A DNA stretch of 53,259 nt from Candidatus Berkelbacteria bacterium (lineage in GTDB: Bacteria > Patescibacteriota > UBA1384 > DTJR01). This document shows positions 4,256 through 48,994 of the stretch, in pieces. The first letter of the stretch is position 1. Each line of letters begins with the position of its first letter. The DNA lies in the NCBI GenBank assembly GCA_026397175.1, contig JAPLVK010000021.1, positions 1 through 53,259 of the forward strand. The letters are read 5' to 3'. A program made the translations under genes and the position numbers. A model generated the notes under the pieces. It did no database searches. It was not told the origin of the DNA and saw only the letters and a list, made by a program, of their open reading frames with translations.

Positions 4256-4291
4256 TTTGCGCATTCTATCCGATCGGACAGAATGCGCAAA
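4256..4291. repeat. CGATCG-centred palindrome P1 (GTCCGATCGGAC family)
   Basis: Two 18-bp arms meet with no loop at CGATCG and match with one exception. The layout is TTTGCGCA, four variable bases, then the GTCCGATCGGAC core (here ATCCGATCGGAC) and the mirror image. It lies 21 bp beyond the stop of the Cas2/PaaX-fold gene. The same family occurs at 4985, 5819 and 12459. Confidence 0.9.
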
Positions 4292-4312
4292 AAAGAGAAT
4301 CAATCAGATTAG

Positions 4313-4924
4313 TCAGATTAGATTAAACTTTTCTTTTAGTGCCTCATTATTATCGATTTTTTCAGCAACGATGTAGTTAACATACTGTTCGATTTGGTAA
4401 ATTGAGGCGATGAAATTAATTTCATTTTCGCATTCATAAGGACTAGCCCAAACACTTTTTTGAAGCCGCAAAAATCCTATTTCTCGTAACTTATCTCGTA
4501 AAACTCGTCTGGCTAGCCGATACTTTTCTGGAACATCAAAAATTACAATTCGCCATTTTCCGTCCCAATCCTGTTGACAAATAGAGATCGTGTCAATATT
4601 GTATTCGATCAGTCGTTTTCGTCCTTTATTGGTAATTTTGAGATATTCTTTGCCATTTTTTTCGACAATTTCGATTAATCTATCTTTGAAAATTTTGTTA
4701 TTAAATTTATCTAAATCTTTTTCGGAAAAATTTCGACGAGATTTTCTAAATAATGGTTTGAGAGCTTGCCATGCATTGGGCGAGGTCATAGCCACTGCAA
4801 TTAAAGTTCCAACCGCTGCGTATTTGAGTGCAACAACGGCATACTCCTTAAAAATCTCCTTTTGATCTTCATTGAGCCGAATTGTGTAAATCCGCTTTTT
4901 CTTGATAATTTTGGTTCCAGGCAT
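4313..4924 (-). CDS. Cas2/PaaX-fold protein with N-terminal extension (copy 1)
   Basis: The C-terminal ~90 residues (WDGKWRIVIFDVPEKYR ... LREIGFLRLQKSVWASPY ... YVNYIVAEKID) have the ferredoxin-like layout of Cas2 and of the PaaX C-terminal domain. The first strand ends in FDVPE, and the middle carries the QKSVWASPY strand. Before it lie a basic N-terminus, a hydrophobic stretch (ALKYAAVGTLIAVAMTSP) and a winged-helix-like part (FKDRLIEIVEKNGKEYLKITNKGRKRL). It is therefore a regulator or nuclease of the PaaX/Cas2 superfamily; there is no CRISPR array or cas1 nearby. The start is ATG 4924; no Shine-Dalgarno is visible. Palindromes P1 and P2 lie on either side. A paralogue lies at 48.3 kb. 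Confidence 0.75.
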   Translation of the reverse strand: MPGTKIIKKKRIYTIRLNEDQKEIFKEYAVVALKYAAVGTLIAVAMTSPNAWQALKPLFRKSRRNFSEKDLDKFNNKIFKDRLIEIVEKNGKEYLKITNKGRKRLIEYNIDTISICQQDWDGKWRIVIFDVPEKYRLARRVLRDKLREIGFLRLQKSVWASPYECENEINFIASIYQIEQYVNYIVAEKIDNNEALKEKFNLI

Positions 4925-4984
4925 TTTTTTATTCAATTTTTATTACTGATATTATCGTCAATATTATTTTAATCCTTTATGGCA

Positions 4985-5022
4985 ATTTGCGCAAATTGTC
5001 CGATCGGACAATTTGCGCAAAT
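4985..5022. repeat. CGATCG-centred palindrome P2
   Basis: A perfect zero-loop palindrome with 19-bp arms. The outer arms ATTTGCGCAAAT are themselves palindromic and the core is TGTCCGATCGGACA. It lies 60 bp upstream of the start of Cas2/PaaX-fold copy 1 and just past the end of the surface-gene remnant. Confidence 0.92.
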
Positions 5023-5077
5023 AGTAGATAAAAAGCTTGGGAACAATCAATAGATTGGAAATAATCAATAGAAATAT

Positions 5078-5236
5078 TTACCCGCCAATGACGATAGTTT
5101 GGGCATCGGGCTTGTTCGGTATGCCCCCACACCAAATAACGCAAAGGCAAGTTCATAAAATTTATAAAATATCTGGTGTGGGGGTAAATGATAGTCGACG
5201 GAGTAAGAGTCGATGGTGGGGTGGGGACTCCAATAG
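5078..5236 (-). pseudogene. Remnant of a second copy of the surface gene at 5897-6961
   Basis: On the minus strand this stretch reads PTIDSYSVDYH, then an inserted segment, then PNKPDAQTIVIGG and a stop. The intact gene at 5897-6961 ends PTVDSYSVGYHTEVKPNKPVAQTAVIQ. Only the last ~30 residues survive and the two halves are in different frames because of the insertion at 5124-5184. In both the intact gene and this remnant, a nearly identical GTCCGATCGGAC palindrome follows some 40-60 bp after the stop. This points to a local duplication that included the palindrome. Confidence 0.7.
5124..5184. repeat. Small inverted-repeat insertion in the surface-gene remnant
   Basis: Arms CCCCCACACCA and TGGTGTGGGGG enclose about 39 bp of AT-rich DNA. 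The segment has no counterpart in the intact paralogue, where TEVK stands instead, so it looks like a short palindromic insertion. Confidence 0.65.
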
Positions 5237-5248
5237 GGAAGCAAGAGA

Positions 5249-5467
5249 TTATCCAGAAATATCGTCTTTTTTGAGTCCCGCTTCTCGTAGAATAGAAAGA
5301 AATGTTCCTTTGGGTAAACTTTTTAGATGAAAGGGTATAACTGCTCTTTTGCCTGTTTTTGGATTTCTAAATATACGATGGCTGCCGGTAGTGTGATCCA
5401 GCTCAAACCCAAATTTCTTTAATACCTTAATAAGTTCCTTGGGTGTGAGGACGGGCAATTTAGGCAT
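5249..5467 (-). CDS. hicA: HicA family mRNA interferase toxin
   Basis: A 72-residue protein with the HicA double-stranded-RNA-binding fold: LTPKELIKVLKKFGFELDHTTGSHRIFRNP, with the catalytic His in GSHRIF, then KSLPKGTFLSILREAGL. HicA cleaves mRNA when not held by HicB. The start is ATG 5467, eight codons inside the longest frame, because HicA proteins begin with PxLTPKEL. It overlaps the end of hicB by 8 bp. The order hicB-hicA is the reverse of the classical E. coli arrangement but common in other bacteria. Confidence 0.9.
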   Translation of the reverse strand: MPKLPVLTPKELIKVLKKFGFELDHTTGSHRIFRNPKTGKRAVIPFHLKSLPKGTFLSILREAGLKKDDISG

Positions 5468-5714
5468 AAGTTTTGCTTTTGGGAGTAGCAATTTCTAGGT
5501 CAACTGATGTAATAAAATTGGTATCATCGGTGGGAATTGGCTCTTTGTGCTTATTTAAACTGGCGACATAGCCATTGATAGCATCATAAGCGTTCTTTTT
5601 GGCTTGCTCTAAATTTTTTCCATAAGTAATACAGCCGGGCAAACTTGGCACCATTACTGTGTAACCACCTTCGGGCTCGGATCTAAAAATGAGGTTATAA
5701 TGTATTCTTTTCAT
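5460..5714 (-). CDS. hicB: HicB family antitoxin
   Basis: An 84-residue protein with the partial RNase H fold of HicB: YNLIFRSEPEGGYTVMVPSLPGCITYGKNLEQAKKNAYDAINGYVASL. The PSLPGCxTxGxxxxEAxxNaxeAI signature is clear. No C-terminal ribbon-helix-helix domain is obvious, so any DNA binding for autoregulation is uncertain. It is translationally coupled to hicA (8-bp overlap), forming a type II toxin-antitoxin module between palindromes P2 and P3. Confidence 0.9.
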   Translation of the reverse strand: MKRIHYNLIFRSEPEGGYTVMVPSLPGCITYGKNLEQAKKNAYDAINGYVASLNKHKEPIPTDDTNFITSVDLEIATPKSKTYA

Positions 5715-5754
5715 GGTCTGATATTATCAAACATACCCTAGTACTGTCAATTAT

Positions 5755-5807
5755 TGCGCCATTTTCGCCCCCGCCAGAGGCGGGCAGGGATCGGCGAAAA
5801 TGGCGCA
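5755..5807. repeat. Inverted repeat upstream of hicBA
   Basis: Arms TGCGCCATTTTCGCC and GGCGAAAATGGCGCA are perfect 15-bp complements. The loop contains a nested hairpin (CCCGCC / GGCGGG). It lies about 40 bp upstream of hicB and could be a terminator for neighbouring transcripts or a regulatory cruciform. Confidence 0.75.
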
Positions 5808-5818
5808 GAAAATATAAC

Positions 5819-5854
5819 TTTGCGCAAATTGTCCGATCGGACAATTTGCGCAAA
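5819..5854. repeat. CGATCG-centred palindrome P3
   Basis: A perfect zero-loop palindrome with 18-bp arms, nearly identical to P2 (same TGTCCGATCGGACA core and TTTGCGCAAA arms). It sits about 40 bp after the stop of the surface gene at 5897-6961. Confidence 0.92.
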
Positions 5855-11583: not shown

Positions 11584-12442
11584 CAAATTTTTGAACACGA
11601 TTTTGTTTGTTGCAATTGTTTTTGCGGTTTTTATTTGGAGTGCGGTAAATCGCAACATTTCCGCCAGTCCAACTAATTTTGAGGTACAGGTTTCGTTTTT
11701 AGATGTCGGCCAGGCGGACGCGGAGCTAATCAATTTGCCAAATTCGGTCCAGATTTTAACCGATGGCGGGCGAGACAGTTCTGTCTTGGGGCCATTAAGC
11801 AAAAAGATGCCGCGTTTTGATCGCAAAATCGAATATGTGTTTTTGTCGCAGCCCGATTCCGATCATATCGGCGGCATGAGTTTTGTTTTGGACTCGTATT
11901 CCGTTGGCGAGATTTTTGAGACAAATGCCAAGAGTGAATCAAAGACATTCGAGAAATTAAAAAACAAAATCAAGGAAAAAAATATCAAAGAAACAGTGGT
12001 TCAAAAGGGTCAGAAAATTGATTTTTCGCCAAATGCCAGCGGGTTAATTTTGAATCCGGACGAAAATCAGATCGGATCTTTGAGCTCAAACGACTCCTCG
12101 ATTGTGATGAAACTCGATTATAAAGGCGCAACCGCTTTGTTTACGGGCGATGCGGAAATTGAGGCGCAAGACAAAATTATGGCAAATTTTACGCGCGAGC
12201 AAATTCAAAGTGAGATTTTGAAAGTGGCCCACCACGGTTCGGGCGGGGCGCTGAATAAGAATTTTTTAAACGAGGTCAAGCCGAAATATGCTGTCGTATC
12301 GGTCGGGAAAAATAATAGTTACGGACATCCCAGCAAGACGGTTCTGCAGGCGCTTGGTGAAATCAATGCCGAAATTTTACGAACGGACGAAATTGGAACA
12401 ATTGATTTTGTTTCAAATGGGGGGAGTTGGACTAAAAAATAG
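11561..12442 (+). CDS. ComEC metallo-beta-lactamase part as separate ORF
   Basis: A 293-residue protein with an N-terminal membrane segment (FLNTILFVAIVFAVFIWSAV) and a metallo-beta-lactamase fold: VSFLDVGQADAELI, LSQPDSDHIGG, TALFTGDAE, KVAHHGSGGA and NSYGHPS. This is the C-terminal part of ComEC, proposed to degrade the non-transported DNA strand. The first His of the HxDxDH motif is Gln here, so metal site 1 may be weakened. The start overlaps the channel gene by 23 bp, suggesting coupled translation. There are two polypeptides rather than one frameshifted gene, since the second has its own membrane anchor. Confidence 0.9.
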   Translation: MMKDRGFSKFLNTILFVAIVFAVFIWSAVNRNISASPTNFEVQVSFLDVGQADAELINLPNSVQILTDGGRDSSVLGPLSKKMPRFDRKIEYVFLSQPDSDHIGGMSFVLDSYSVGEIFETNAKSESKTFEKLKNKIKEKNIKETVVQKGQKIDFSPNASGLILNPDENQIGSLSSNDSSIVMKLDYKGATALFTGDAEIEAQDKIMANFTREQIQSEILKVAHHGSGGALNKNFLNEVKPKYAVVSVGKNNSYGHPSKTVLQALGEINAEILRTDEIGTIDFVSNGGSWTKK

Positions 12443-12458
12443 GATTAGCTTGTGATTG

Positions 12459-12494
12459 TTTGCGCATTTTGTCCGATCGGACAAAATGCGCAAA
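12459..12494. repeat. CGATCG-centred palindrome P4 (GTCCGATCGGAC family)
   Basis: A perfect zero-loop palindrome with 18-bp arms: TTTGCGCA, TTTT, GTCCGATCGGAC, AAAA, TGCGCAAA. The four variable bases differ from P1, P2 and P3 but are mirrored on both sides. It lies 17 bp after the second comEC ORF, 7.5 kb from the Cas2/PaaX-fold gene with the same family. Confidence 0.92.
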
Positions 12495-12562
12495 TAATAT
12501 TGAGGTTTGATGTTGATTGGGGGGCTGACTAATGGATGTAACTGTGTGAAATTTAAGGTTCA

Positions 12563-12598
12563 TTTGCCACTTTTATACGATCGTATCAAAGTGGCAAA
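12563..12598. repeat. CGATCG-centred palindrome P5
   Basis: 18-bp arms with one mismatch, zero loop: TTTGCCACTTT, then ATACGATCGTAT, then the mirror. It shares the CGATCG centre but not the arms of the P1-P4 family. The 12443-12778 stretch has no gene: it holds P4, P5 and the terminator of the next minus-strand gene. Confidence 0.85.
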
Positions 12599-12778: not shown

Positions 12779-13189
12779 TCAATAGCGCGGCCCGTTATTG
12801 TAGCGCTGCCAGGCATTCTGGGCGTTTTGCTGCGCCTGCAGCGCGTTTTGCAGCGCGCCGAGTTGGTCAATCTGCGGCTGCAGATTGCCACCGTAGCCAT
12901 TGCCACCGTAGTTGTTGTACCCGTAACCACCGTTGTAGTAGGGCTGCTGCGGGTAGCAAACGGGTGGCGGACAGGGCTGCATTGGCTGCCAGCCCGATTG
13001 CCACGGTTGGCCGTAGGGCTGGTAGCAGGGCGGCGGCGGCGGGTAGCAGGGTTGCTGCCATACTGGGCCGAAGCGCGGCCCGAATCCGAAGTTGATGCTC
13101 ACGCGGGGCCCACCGCGATAGGCCGCCGCCATGCTGGCCACCAGGGCCAGCAACACAAAAATCAGTACGACCATGCGGAGCGCTTTCAT
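12779..13189 (-). CDS. Secreted Gly/Pro/Tyr/Gln-rich low-complexity protein
   Basis: A 136-residue product with a clean signal peptide (MKALRMVVLIFVLLALVASMAAA) and a mature part made of low-complexity sequence: a Phe/Gly patch, a Pro-Cys-Tyr-Gln stretch with several PCYPP/PCPPP motifs, a Tyr-Gly-Asn stretch and a Gln/Asn/Ala-rich end. The cysteines could crosslink it outside the cell. I do not recognise a family. The start is ATG 13189, with AAAGGAG about 11 bp upstream; the longer frame would place that ribosome site inside the gene. It is G+C-richer than its neighbours and has its own consensus promoter and terminator. Confidence 0.7.
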   Translation of the reverse strand: MKALRMVVLIFVLLALVASMAAAYRGGPRVSINFGFGPRFGPVWQQPCYPPPPPCYQPYGQPWQSGWQPMQPCPPPVCYPQQPYYNGGYGYNNYGGNGYGGNLQPQIDQLGALQNALQAQQNAQNAWQRYNNGPRY

Positions 13190-27929: not shown

Positions 27930-27961
27930 TGTACAAATTTCTCGATCGAGAAATTTGTACA
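27930..27961. repeat. CGATCG-centred palindrome P6 (CTCGATCGAG family)
   Basis: A perfect zero-loop palindrome with 16-bp arms: TGTACAAATTT, CTCGATCGAG, AAATTTGTACA. Its core and ends match the palindromes around the second Cas2/PaaX-fold gene 20 kb away. Confidence 0.92.
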
Positions 27962-28029
27962 TGGGAATGAATCTGTTAGATTCCGATGATTACAAAATCA
28001 AGATGAACAGATGTATACGAGGGGATAGA

Positions 28030-28107: not shown

Positions 28108-28149
28108 TTTAATATACAATTTTTCCGTACAGAAAAATTGTATATTAAA
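28108..28149. repeat. AT-rich palindrome P7 centred on GTAC
   Basis: 21-bp arms with one mismatch and no loop: TTTAATATACAATTTTTC, CGTACA, and the mirror. Same architecture as P1-P6 but without the CGATCG centre. Confidence 0.85.
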
Positions 28150-45597: not shown

Positions 45598-46392
45598 ATG
45601 AGAAAAAACATAAATCCTTGGACACAATTGAGCATTGAGTACGCCAGCCAGCGGAGTTATTTGGACGATCTATTTCAGGTATATCCAACAATTCCCGAAG
45701 GGATACGCGAACCTAACGGTGAACTCTGGAAGGGTGTAGAAAAGGCGTTTGCGAAGCGCGACAATGTTGCGCTTATGGAAAACCTTTTGAAACTCGATTT
45801 GTTTCCGATTAAAGATTCCTATGTCGCCTATCTGAAACGAGACAAAACTGCGTTAGAGCGAAATCCGGCAACATCTGCTCGACTATCCGGACGCTTGTAT
45901 GAAATGGGGCTTGATACGATTTTTGCTCGTTGTGCTGAACCGAAGGAAACAAACCGACAAATTGGGCCTCTTTTTAAACGCTGGCTTAATAAGAAAGCAT
46001 TGGGAGTTCAGCCAGTAAAACTCGATGAATTTTTGAAAGCGAAAGGAAACGCTGTCTTGGACGCCAGTGATGCGGAAATGATGGCTTTTGCTCGCAAGCA
46101 CCTGAACTACAAACACAATAAGGGATTGGACTTTATCGGTCGCTTTAACGGAAAATATGTTATCGGTGAGGCAAAATTTCTAACCGACTTTGGCGGACAC
46201 CAAAACGCACAATTCAACGATGCTATTGCAACAGTAAAAGCAAAAGGTGTGGAAGCGATAACTGTCGCAATTCTTGATGGTGTTCTCTATATTGAGGGTA
46301 AAAACAAAATGTATAAAGATATTACAGGCAAGCTCAAAAAAGAAAATATTATGAGTGCACTTGTTCTGCGCGAATTTCTCTATCAAATATAA
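45598..46392 (+). CDS. Type II restriction endonuclease
   Basis: A 264-residue protein that directly precedes a DNA methyltransferase gene (5-bp gap). A PD-(D/E)xK core is visible: Asp178 in GLDFIGRFNGKYVIGEAKFLTDFGG and Glu191-Ala-Lys193, followed by HQNAQFNDAI. The N-terminal half is helical. It may belong to the Tsp45I-like group, but I cannot confirm this or the recognition site. A tiny ORF of 18 codons (45539-45595) before it may be a remnant or leader. Confidence 0.85.
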   Translation: MRKNINPWTQLSIEYASQRSYLDDLFQVYPTIPEGIREPNGELWKGVEKAFAKRDNVALMENLLKLDLFPIKDSYVAYLKRDKTALERNPATSARLSGRLYEMGLDTIFARCAEPKETNRQIGPLFKRWLNKKALGVQPVKLDEFLKAKGNAVLDASDAEMMAFARKHLNYKHNKGLDFIGRFNGKYVIGEAKFLTDFGGHQNAQFNDAIATVKAKGVEAITVAILDGVLYIEGKNKMYKDITGKLKKENIMSALVLREFLYQI

Positions 46393-46397
46393 ATATT

Positions 46398-47567
46398 ATG
46401 TTTATAACTTATGACAATAAAAAACCCGAGAAAGATATTCTCGAAACCTCGAGAATCGAGTTAAATACAATCTCCGGCAAAGGGGCAAAAAATAAGCTCA
46501 TACACGCTAACAATCTTTCCACACTAAAAACTCTACTCGATGATTATGCGGGTAAAGTTGATTTGATTTATATTGATCCTCCTTTTGCAACAAACGAACA
46601 TTTCAAAATCAGCGAGGATCGGGCAAATACAATTAGTAGTAATGGTAACACAATCGCATACAGTGACATTTTAGTTGGAGCAGAATTTTTGGAATTTTTG
46701 CGCGAACGACTGATTTTTTTACGCGAACTTTTATCGAAGCGTGGCTCAATTTATCTTCATATTGACTACAAAATCGGACATTATGTAAAACTTATAATGG
46801 ACGAAGTTTTCGGGCGAGATATGTTCCGAAACGACATCGCTCGCATCAAGTGCAATCCAAAAAATTTTCAACGAAAGGCATATGGAAACATCAAGGACTT
46901 GATACTTTTTTATACTAAATCAGAGAATCCGACTTGGAATGAACCAAAAGTTCCATTTTCGGAAGAAGACGAAGAACGCTTATTTAAGAAAATTGATAAA
47001 GATGGGCGACAATATACAACAATCCCACTCCACGCACCTGGAGAAACTTCAAACGGCAATACTGGCAAAGAATGGCGCGGAGTAAAACCACCCAGGGGTC
47101 GCCATTGGCGAAGCGATCCGACTGCTTTGGAAGAGCTAGACAAACAGGGACTTATTGAGTGGTCGGCGAATGGAGTGCCACGCAAAAAAATCTTTCTTGA
47201 CGAAAGAGACGGAAAGAAAATGCAGGACATTTGGGAGTTCAAAGATCCTCAATATCCGAAATATCCAACGGAAAAAAGTTTGGACTTGTTGAAATTTATC
47301 GTGGAAGCTTCATCGAACGAGGGCAGTTTAGTACTCGATTGTTTTTGCGGTTCCGGCACAACGCTTGTTGCGGCACAATCACTCAATCGCAATTGGATAG
47401 GAATTGATAAATCAGAACACGCAATAAAAGTTGCGGGGAGAAGACTGCTTGCAATGCCGGCAAATCTTTTTTCGACAGTGAATTTTGAGTTTCTCTCAGA
47501 AATTACTAATCCCGAAAGTCAAGTTGAAAAATATACAGCAAAAACTTCCGTAGCATATAAAAGCTAA
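46398..47567 (+). CDS. Beta-class DNA methyltransferase (type II modification)
   Basis: A 389-residue amino-methyltransferase in beta order: catalytic motif IV DPPF (YIDPPFATNEHF, about residue 60) precedes the target-recognition insert, and the AdoMet-binding motif I (LDCFCGSGTTLVAAQSL, about residue 313) is near the C-terminus with NWIGIDKSEHA (motif II). DPPF allows N6-adenine or N4-cytosine methylation. It protects host DNA from the endonuclease upstream. Confidence 0.94.
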   Translation: MFITYDNKKPEKDILETSRIELNTISGKGAKNKLIHANNLSTLKTLLDDYAGKVDLIYIDPPFATNEHFKISEDRANTISSNGNTIAYSDILVGAEFLEFLRERLIFLRELLSKRGSIYLHIDYKIGHYVKLIMDEVFGRDMFRNDIARIKCNPKNFQRKAYGNIKDLILFYTKSENPTWNEPKVPFSEEDEERLFKKIDKDGRQYTTIPLHAPGETSNGNTGKEWRGVKPPRGRHWRSDPTALEELDKQGLIEWSANGVPRKKIFLDERDGKKMQDIWEFKDPQYPKYPTEKSLDLLKFIVEASSNEGSLVLDCFCGSGTTLVAAQSLNRNWIGIDKSEHAIKVAGRRLLAMPANLFSTVNFEFLSEITNPESQVEKYTAKTSVAYKS

Positions 47568-48227: not shown

Positions 48228-48247
48228 GCCAAGCATCCCAATCCAAA

Positions 48248-48279
48248 TGTACAAAAACCTCGATCGAGAAAATAGTACA
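48248..48279. repeat. CGATCG-centred palindrome P8 (CTCGATCGAG family)
   Basis: TGTAC, AAAAAC, CTCGATCGAG, AAAATA, GTACA. The core and ends are palindromic, the six-base spacers are not. It ends 2 bp from the stop codon of the Cas2/PaaX-fold gene and matches P9 at 31 of 32 bases in the same orientation. Confidence 0.9.
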
Positions 48280-48281
48280 CG

Positions 48282-48827
48282 CTATAAGTTAAATCTTTCT
48301 TTTAACTTTGTATCGTCATCTGTTATGTCGCTTTTGGCATTAAAAAAAGAAACATATTTTTCAATGCCAAGCTCTCTCCTTAGCTGATCCAGGGCCTTAA
48401 AATCAGCATAGGGCGAAATAAAAACACTATTTTGAATTCCGACAAAGCCCTTTCGCTTTAGAATCGACCTGAAAATATCCCTTTGCTTTCTTTTTGATTC
48501 CGGAATATCATAACTGATAATTTTCCAATTTCCATCCCATCCGTTACTCGACCAATCGTTCTGTTCAATCTTAATTCTATTAATTTTATTTATAGCTTTT
48601 GGTGTAATTAGAAACTGGTCGTCATTAATTTGGCGAATGTAACCATGCCGACGCAAGCCATAAAAAGCTGATTGATATTGTTCGCTTTTCAGATGCATAT
48701 TTTTTCCGAGTCGACTGGCTGATCCGGCGCTAAATAAAAAGGCCTCCGTATAATCCGCTGTGGTTTCGAGTATCTCGCCAGTAATTTCTAAAAGCAATCT
48801 AGTAGCATTTGATATTTTCTTTTTCAT
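48282..48827 (-). CDS. Cas2/PaaX-fold protein (copy 2)
   Basis: A 181-residue protein. The N-terminal half is a winged helix (TRLLLEITGEILETTADYTEAFLFSAG ... SEQYQSAFYGLRRHGYIRQINDDQFLITPKAINKINRI). The C-terminal half has the Cas2/PaaX ferredoxin-like fold: WDGNWKIISYDIPESKRKQRDIFRSILKRKGFVGIQNSVFISPY ... YVSFFNAKSDI. The layout matches copy 1 at 4.3 kb (WDGxW, F/YDIPE, QNSVxxSPY). There is no CRISPR array or cas1. The start is ATG 48827. Palindromes P8 and P9 lie 2 bp from its stop and 8 bp from its start; TACAAT at the inner edge of P9 may serve as -10 box, which would make P9 an operator. Confidence 0.78.
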   Translation of the reverse strand: MKKKISNATRLLLEITGEILETTADYTEAFLFSAGSASRLGKNMHLKSEQYQSAFYGLRRHGYIRQINDDQFLITPKAINKINRIKIEQNDWSSNGWDGNWKIISYDIPESKRKQRDIFRSILKRKGFVGIQNSVFISPYADFKALDQLRRELGIEKYVSFFNAKSDITDDDTKLKERFNL

Positions 48828-48835
48828 ATTTATAT

Positions 48836-48867
48836 TGTACAAAAATCTCGATCGAGAAAATAGTACA
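48836..48867. repeat. CGATCG-centred palindrome P9 (CTCGATCGAG family)
   Basis: TGTAC, AAAAAT, CTCGATCGAG, AAAATA, GTACA: one base different from P8. It overlaps the likely promoter of the Cas2/PaaX-fold gene. Confidence 0.9.
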
Positions 48868-48994
48868 TTCTTTAAAGAGTGGAAAATGCTGATTTACTAA
48901 GGATTACTATCGTTTTGCTCTTGCGTGACGGCTTTGAGGCGATTGAAATTTATACATTTAAAGCATATTATTTATATATACCAAGGAGGATTCA

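Follow-up and report, generated by a model that had tools for sequence, protein, structure and literature searches.

A stretch of 53,259 nucleotides from a Candidatus Berkelbacteria bacterium (contig JAPLVK010000021.1; the whole stretch is called the window here) contains a short gene tightly bracketed by two palindromes, P8 and P9 (Table 1). The question raised by this locus is what a Cas2-fold protein does between two copies of such a site. The original prediction named two possibilities, a gene plus recognition-site unit of the RAYT/REP type and a regulator with dispersed operators. The analysis supports this choice of readings, with a bracketed autoregulator as the rival of the first. To our knowledge, no bacterial gene other than the HUH partners of REP palindromes has been well described as paired with dispersed palindromes of its own. 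Patescibacteria genomes are about 1 Mb in size and selfish DNA is expected to be rare in them. From the sequences we favor a REP/RAYT-like unit, selfish or domesticated, in which a Cas2-fold protein takes the place of the HUH transposase, with a probability of roughly 0.55.

Table 1. Genes and palindromic sites in the window (window coordinates).
Feature	Position	Strand	Remarks
Second unit, downstream palindrome	4256..4291		TTTGCGCA...CCGATCGG...TGCGCAAA
Second unit, gene (L005)	4313..4936	-	207 aa, paralog of the 181-aa protein
Second unit, upstream palindrome	4985..5022		
Second unit, third palindrome copy	5819..5854		past the HicBA toxin-antitoxin pair
Solitary palindrome, family of second unit	12455..12498		13 bp past an ORF stop codon
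Solitary palindrome	12563..12598		core ACGATCGT, possibly L007-like; doublet with 12455
P6, solitary perfect palindrome	27930..27961		ends and core as in P8/P9
Solitary palindrome, other family	28108..28149		core CCGTACAG; doublet with P6; related site at C3:114808
P8, downstream dyad	48248..48279		36-bp frame 48246-48281; core CTCGATCGAG, ends TGTAC/GTACA
Cas2/PaaX_M-fold gene	48282..48827	-	winged helix ~7-75, Cas2-like ferredoxin domain ~100-166, Asp107
P9, upstream dyad	48836..48867		36-bp frame 48834-48869; centre 25 bp before start codon

The bracketed gene is an intact ORF of 181 aa. Pfam assigns PaaX_M (4e-22) and CRISPR_Cas2 (1e-7) to the protein, and the AlphaFold2 model (pLDDT 90, with an alignment of 67 relatives as input) places a Cas2-like ferredoxin domain after a winged helix. 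The top Foldseek match is E. coli PaaX (PDB 8a39, 4e-6); further PaaX-like proteins and numerous Cas2 structures follow. The protein shares with the PaaX repressors the winged helix and the PaaX_M central Cas2-like domain. Because the PaaX C-terminal domain is absent and the TIGR02277 score (29) is far below the cut-off (265), the protein was not classified as a PaaX regulator. A second difference is the retained Cas2 Asp. Asp107 is at the Cas2 catalytic position, where 119 of 121 short homologs carry Asp and the bacterial full-length PaaX-like proteins carry Ser (6/6); an archaeal full-length group retains Asp and lacks palindromes. The ferredoxin-like domain, a (Y/F)D motif, an Arg and a Q-S-V-F motif are common to the protein, CRISPR Cas2 and VapD, while the winged-helix fusion sets it apart from them. 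The host genome has no Cas1, nor do 8 of the 9 other genomes tested, and by this lack of Cas1 the protein is not a CRISPR Cas2. Domain profiles detected PaaX_M in all 67 aligned relatives and Cas2 also in 49, and the remaining matches, with few members each, were to winged-helix or regulator domains and DUF4364. None of the 67 members matched an HUH motif or catalytic Tyr, and no His or Tyr is conserved. The Cas2-fold protein probably acts as a dimer. It had been suggested that a Cas2-fold protein in such a role without CRISPR is not described; we found no earlier description of such a system in the open-access literature (subscription literature and preprints were outside the scope).

P8 lies 2 bp from the stop codon and P9 8 bp from the start codon, as originally noted; P9 is likely the operator/promoter copy. 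The two sites differ at one of 32 bases. They are imperfect palindromes, with arm pairing of only 11/16 and 12/16 in P8 and P9, because a 5-bp mid-arm stretch is largely unpaired. Since they carry the identical asymmetry in the middle, they are direct repeats here, as had been claimed. This cannot be taken as a rule: across the matched pairs of homologs 16 are direct, 5 inverted and 77 symmetric, and excision between fixed direct repeats was rejected as a general explanation because inverted pairs occur. P6 was correctly described as a solitary site with the same core and ends, and its arms pair perfectly, but it is not the sole one. The host genome (1.01 Mb) was examined by stretches and by pattern searches, with backward patterns as controls. 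The pattern GTAC-N6-CTCGATCGAG-N6-GTAC has six sites in the whole genome versus none for the control pattern, and four of them are solitary (C20:27931, C20:67152, C21:13663 and C9:3258). The 30-bp site at C21:13663 is identical to P6. These two solitary palindromes (window 27930-28010 and L249 near position 1000) also have a similar 45-bp right flank (AATGAATCTGTTAGATTC...), which suggests a longer repeated unit.

The window gene is not alone in its genome. Eight homologs were found in the host, with paralogs 21 to 56% identical. Seven are short and each has flanking palindromes of the same kind, making seven units; the eighth is a full-length PaaX of 235 aa with no flanking palindromes. The protein of the second unit in the window (L005) shows 24% identity to the 181-aa protein overall and 32% over residues 69-181. 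The pattern of its sites occurs 11 times in the host genome (nine solitary) and that of a third gene five times (three solitary), compared to zero for both backward controls. Solitary copies are intergenic, and a copy of one family is often joined in a doublet by one of another family 50 to 190 bp away. In the second unit (window 4256-5854) the HicBA toxin-antitoxin pair is found between the second and third palindrome copies in a cargo-like position. Elsewhere in the window, positions 45598-47567 encode a Tsp45I-type restriction enzyme and an adjoining DNA methylase, just past the PH-domain neighbor gene.

Homologs are present in 118 of 380 sampled Patescibacteria genomes, often five to nine in each. 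A collection scan added 550 further relatives, of which the best 80 are mostly patescibacterial. For each short homolog the best pair of dyads with one site per side was scored against pairs taken from different loci. At a threshold of at least 24/36 identical positions (99th percentile of the null, 23/36), a matched 36-bp dyad pair was found at 98 of 115 short homologs, almost all of them patescibacterial, and each short homolog has its private site sequence. With a strict palindrome criterion required on both sides, 22 of 95 short homologs scored positive, as against 0 of the 332 neighboring ORFs used as controls; palindromes were thus not equally frequent beside unrelated genes. None of 13 full-length PaaX homologs was positive by the same criterion, a further difference from the PaaX repressors. 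The expectation that homologs would be flanked by CGATCG-centred palindromes therefore held for the flanking and failed for the core. The centre is better written as C-N4-G (n = 196: CGGCCG 56, CGATCG 47, CGACCG 19, CTATAG 18, CGATAG 12 and CATATG 10), with CGATCG in only about a quarter of the sites.

Each site is a 36-bp dyad, with pairing of 0.65 to 0.98 at arm positions 1-18 that drops to background by about position 20. Beyond arm position ~19 there is no common sequence, hence no tetranucleotide foot of the GTAG type. Outward growth of the palindromes into the flanks, hinted at by L101, L016 and C20:115505, was rejected as a general process because pairing past position 19 is near background overall. 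Within a unit the core and the outer positions 12-18 are near-identical and positions 6-11 are variable. Where both arms had changed between copies, 77% of the cells were paired as compared to 29% after shuffling (5000 shuffles, maximum 40%), and the effect was equal by side (upstream 63/81, downstream 62/81). Between related units of different species, 30 of 48 double-changed cells were paired in both. Among solitary copies all 87 variable middle positions were paired, in eight distinct middles, with a chance level of about 0.3 per position. Double changes that keep pairing argue that self-complementarity, beyond the sequence alone, is kept or regenerated. The sites also follow the proteins: the more alike the proteins of two units, the more alike their site cores (0/500 permutations), and at protein identity above 60% the outer site parts are 0.80 identical versus a baseline of 0.35.

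The units come and go at single intergenic loci of related species. At the kef-cysS locus of one genus, the unit occurs in three species, with palindromes that differ from one species to the next; no gene accompanies the single palindrome of G363, and two further species have neither. The G399 unit at this locus groups in the tree with the G297 unit at another locus and not with the other two (modest support). Downstream (3') of queA, units are found in G155 and G325, from two genera, with proteins 31% identical and different palindromes, and no unit in G177 and G398, from two other genera. The empty sites envisaged in the original prediction thus exist, both with one palindrome (G363) and with none (G212, G172, G177 and G398). 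Several units are syntenic between species and so vertically inherited, e.g., L178/L180 with compensated site changes. Some relatives with 64 to 72% identity sit in unrelated surroundings, among them L014/L023 with near-identical sites. The present, absent and one-palindrome loci, together with different units at one spot, indicate that units persist, get lost and arrive again in the same intergenic positions. No genome contained near-identical copies of a gene, and no clean insertion flanked by a target-site duplication was seen, so no recent transposition was caught. At the empty and one-palindrome loci the flanks are too diverged to define the ends. The ligA-gatC locus was rejected as a clean empty site: although two relatives lack the unit, the insertion exceeds it in length and the flanks are too diverged.

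The closest known arrangement is the REPtron, in which TnpA-REP/RAYT, an HUH-Tyr enzyme, is encoded by a short gene between family-specific REP palindromes with a GTAG foot, with extragenic copies and some doublets (PMC8266576, PMC6006769, PMC3733652). The units described here likewise have one short gene with palindromes of its own family on both sides and further extragenic copies, some as doublets. Mostly one diverged gene copy per family, co-evolution of protein and palindrome, and a patchy distribution are also common to both. They differ in the Cas2/PaaX fold, the lack of an HUH motif or catalytic Tyr and the lack of the GTAG foot; the palindromes here are 36 bp with 18-bp arms, there are 5 to 11 sites per family and not hundreds, and it is the unit as a whole that comes and goes at loci. 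With IS200/IS605 elements the units share a compact single-gene layout with a hairpin at each end and no need for long terminal inverted repeats. In contrast to those elements, the units lack a Y1 transposase and identical copies, neither a guide sequence nor a target is shown, and the hairpins are long near-perfect palindromes.

In the REP/RAYT-like model, the Cas2-fold protein would recognize its own 36-bp palindrome, one copy of which is located on each side of its gene. The upstream palindrome overlaps the promoter, and so the protein would very likely limit its own expression. Its probable substrate is the palindrome folded into a hairpin or cruciform, which it would nick. Repair or strand switching after the nick would then copy one arm onto the other, keeping the arms identical, and palindromes, occasionally the whole unit of ~670 bp, would spread into intergenic sites. 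What we observe at the level of sequence is the matched pairs, the family-specific dispersed copies, the arm covariation, presence and absence at loci, and retention of the Asp; from these we infer binding, autoregulation, cleavage or other nuclease activity, and transposition or seeding. The unit looks like a minimal selfish DNA element of a kind not described before. The full version of the model, a new class of prokaryotic selfish element whose Cas2-fold protein, with no help from Cas1 or from an HUH, DDE or recombinase domain, cuts palindromes in their hairpin or cruciform form, spreading and proofreading them by arm copying, is put forward more tentatively, at somewhat less than even odds. 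Several points count against the REP-like model: no recent transposition was caught, several units are inherited vertically, the middles of P8 and P9 in the window are poorly paired, the promoter location of the upstream copy is also expected of a plain repressor, and lone palindromes could be scars of recombination between the two flanking repeats.

The strongest rival, itself rather unlikely, is such a repressor, a mini-PaaX that only binds DNA. The upstream palindrome would be its operator, the downstream copy would allow two dimers to loop the gene, the lone palindromes would be operators scattered over the genome or traces of genes since lost, and the spread would be due to ordinary horizontal transfer. 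The winged helix and the PaaX-like fold are in its favor. So are the upstream copies, in which sense -35/-10 pairs were found in 16% versus 2% of shuffled sequences at a score of at least 10 (downstream copies, 1%), and whose centres lie preferentially around positions -19, -29 and -48 relative to the start codon. The promoter enrichment and the clustered positions indicate that the upstream copy is probably also an operator, and the promoter overlap supports self-repression as a reading of the sequence. Self-repression leaves the downstream copy, the dispersed copies and the arm covariation unaccounted for. A dimer that binds duplex DNA gives no reason for paired variable positions or for perfectly paired solitary sites. 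The Cas2 Asp, kept here and not in the full-length bacterial PaaX, and the different units at one spot are also left unexplained.

Control at the RNA level was considered improbable. A Cas2/VapD-like RNase would cleave the 3' mRNA hairpin formed by the downstream palindrome and so limit its own message. Ribonucleases are known in the literature among Cas2-fold proteins and the hairpin potential at the 3' end is strong, but the promoter-overlapping upstream copies and the solitary copies are under the same pairing constraint. A defense or addiction nuclease that recognizes palindromic hairpins in invading or replicating DNA, with the flanking palindromes as self-markers, appears slightly less probable still. 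The restriction-modification pair and HicBA are in the neighborhood and PADLOC Cas2 profiles give matches; against this, no consistent defense neighborhood was seen, the gene is absent from phage records, and several diverged copies per genome have private sites each. An origin from phages or plasmids was rejected, with no phage match and with plasmid matches that include an annotated full-length Streptomyces PaaX, and so was an RNA family, with an Rfam match only to a tRNA. Ordinary terminators or chance repeats beside an ordinary regulator can be dismissed: the sites are intergenic and a T-rich stretch follows 12 of 98 downstream sites, but they are AT-rich (37% GC) and mostly free of T-runs, and chance is ruled out by the matched family-specific pairs on both sides, the negative control ORFs, the matched-pair null and the control patterns.

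Across Patescibacteria, a REP-like layout has thus arisen around an unrelated protein with a nuclease-like Cas2-fold domain. Should the protein act on the palindromes, the Cas2 fold would be linked to mobile DNA without Cas1, and one 180-aa protein and one 36-bp site would make a minimal testable system, possibly a model for a Cas2-type nuclease serving mobile DNA outside CRISPR. It would also account for genes that profile searches label merely as Cas2 or PaaX.

Several other repeats were seen at the loci examined. In the host genome, L123 (C20:115505-115624) is a 120-bp perfect palindrome with 60-bp arms and no mismatches. It is centred on a CCGATCGG site and takes in the adjoining terminator-like sequence; a fold-back duplication is one possible origin, an assembly artefact another. 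L262 and L263 (C24:26790-26916 and C26:20761-20886) carry the same palindrome doublet with equal spacing (~90 bp between centres) and unrelated linkers; both palindromes have the outer TTTGCGCA and their cores differ. A reverse transcriptase-like ORF, recognized by eye, is found at C3:88347-89492 (L128), with a solitary L006-family palindrome next to it. Two units of G399 have upstream regions (L172:1183-1427 and L196:1898-2032) that are alike over ~130 bp (93-100% identity) and have hairpin potential. In G155 and G325, runs of CTA repeats upstream of similar genes (L209:1790-1840 and 11740-11810; L220) separate a TTGACT -35 from the -10 and may make the promoter phase-variable. Short REP-like repeats (GATTGCTTCGTC...CGCAATGAC and GGATTCCCGCC...GCGGGAATGACA) occur at L209:2480-2520 and 12818-12850 and at many places in G325 and G177, and they differ from the 36-bp dyad sites.
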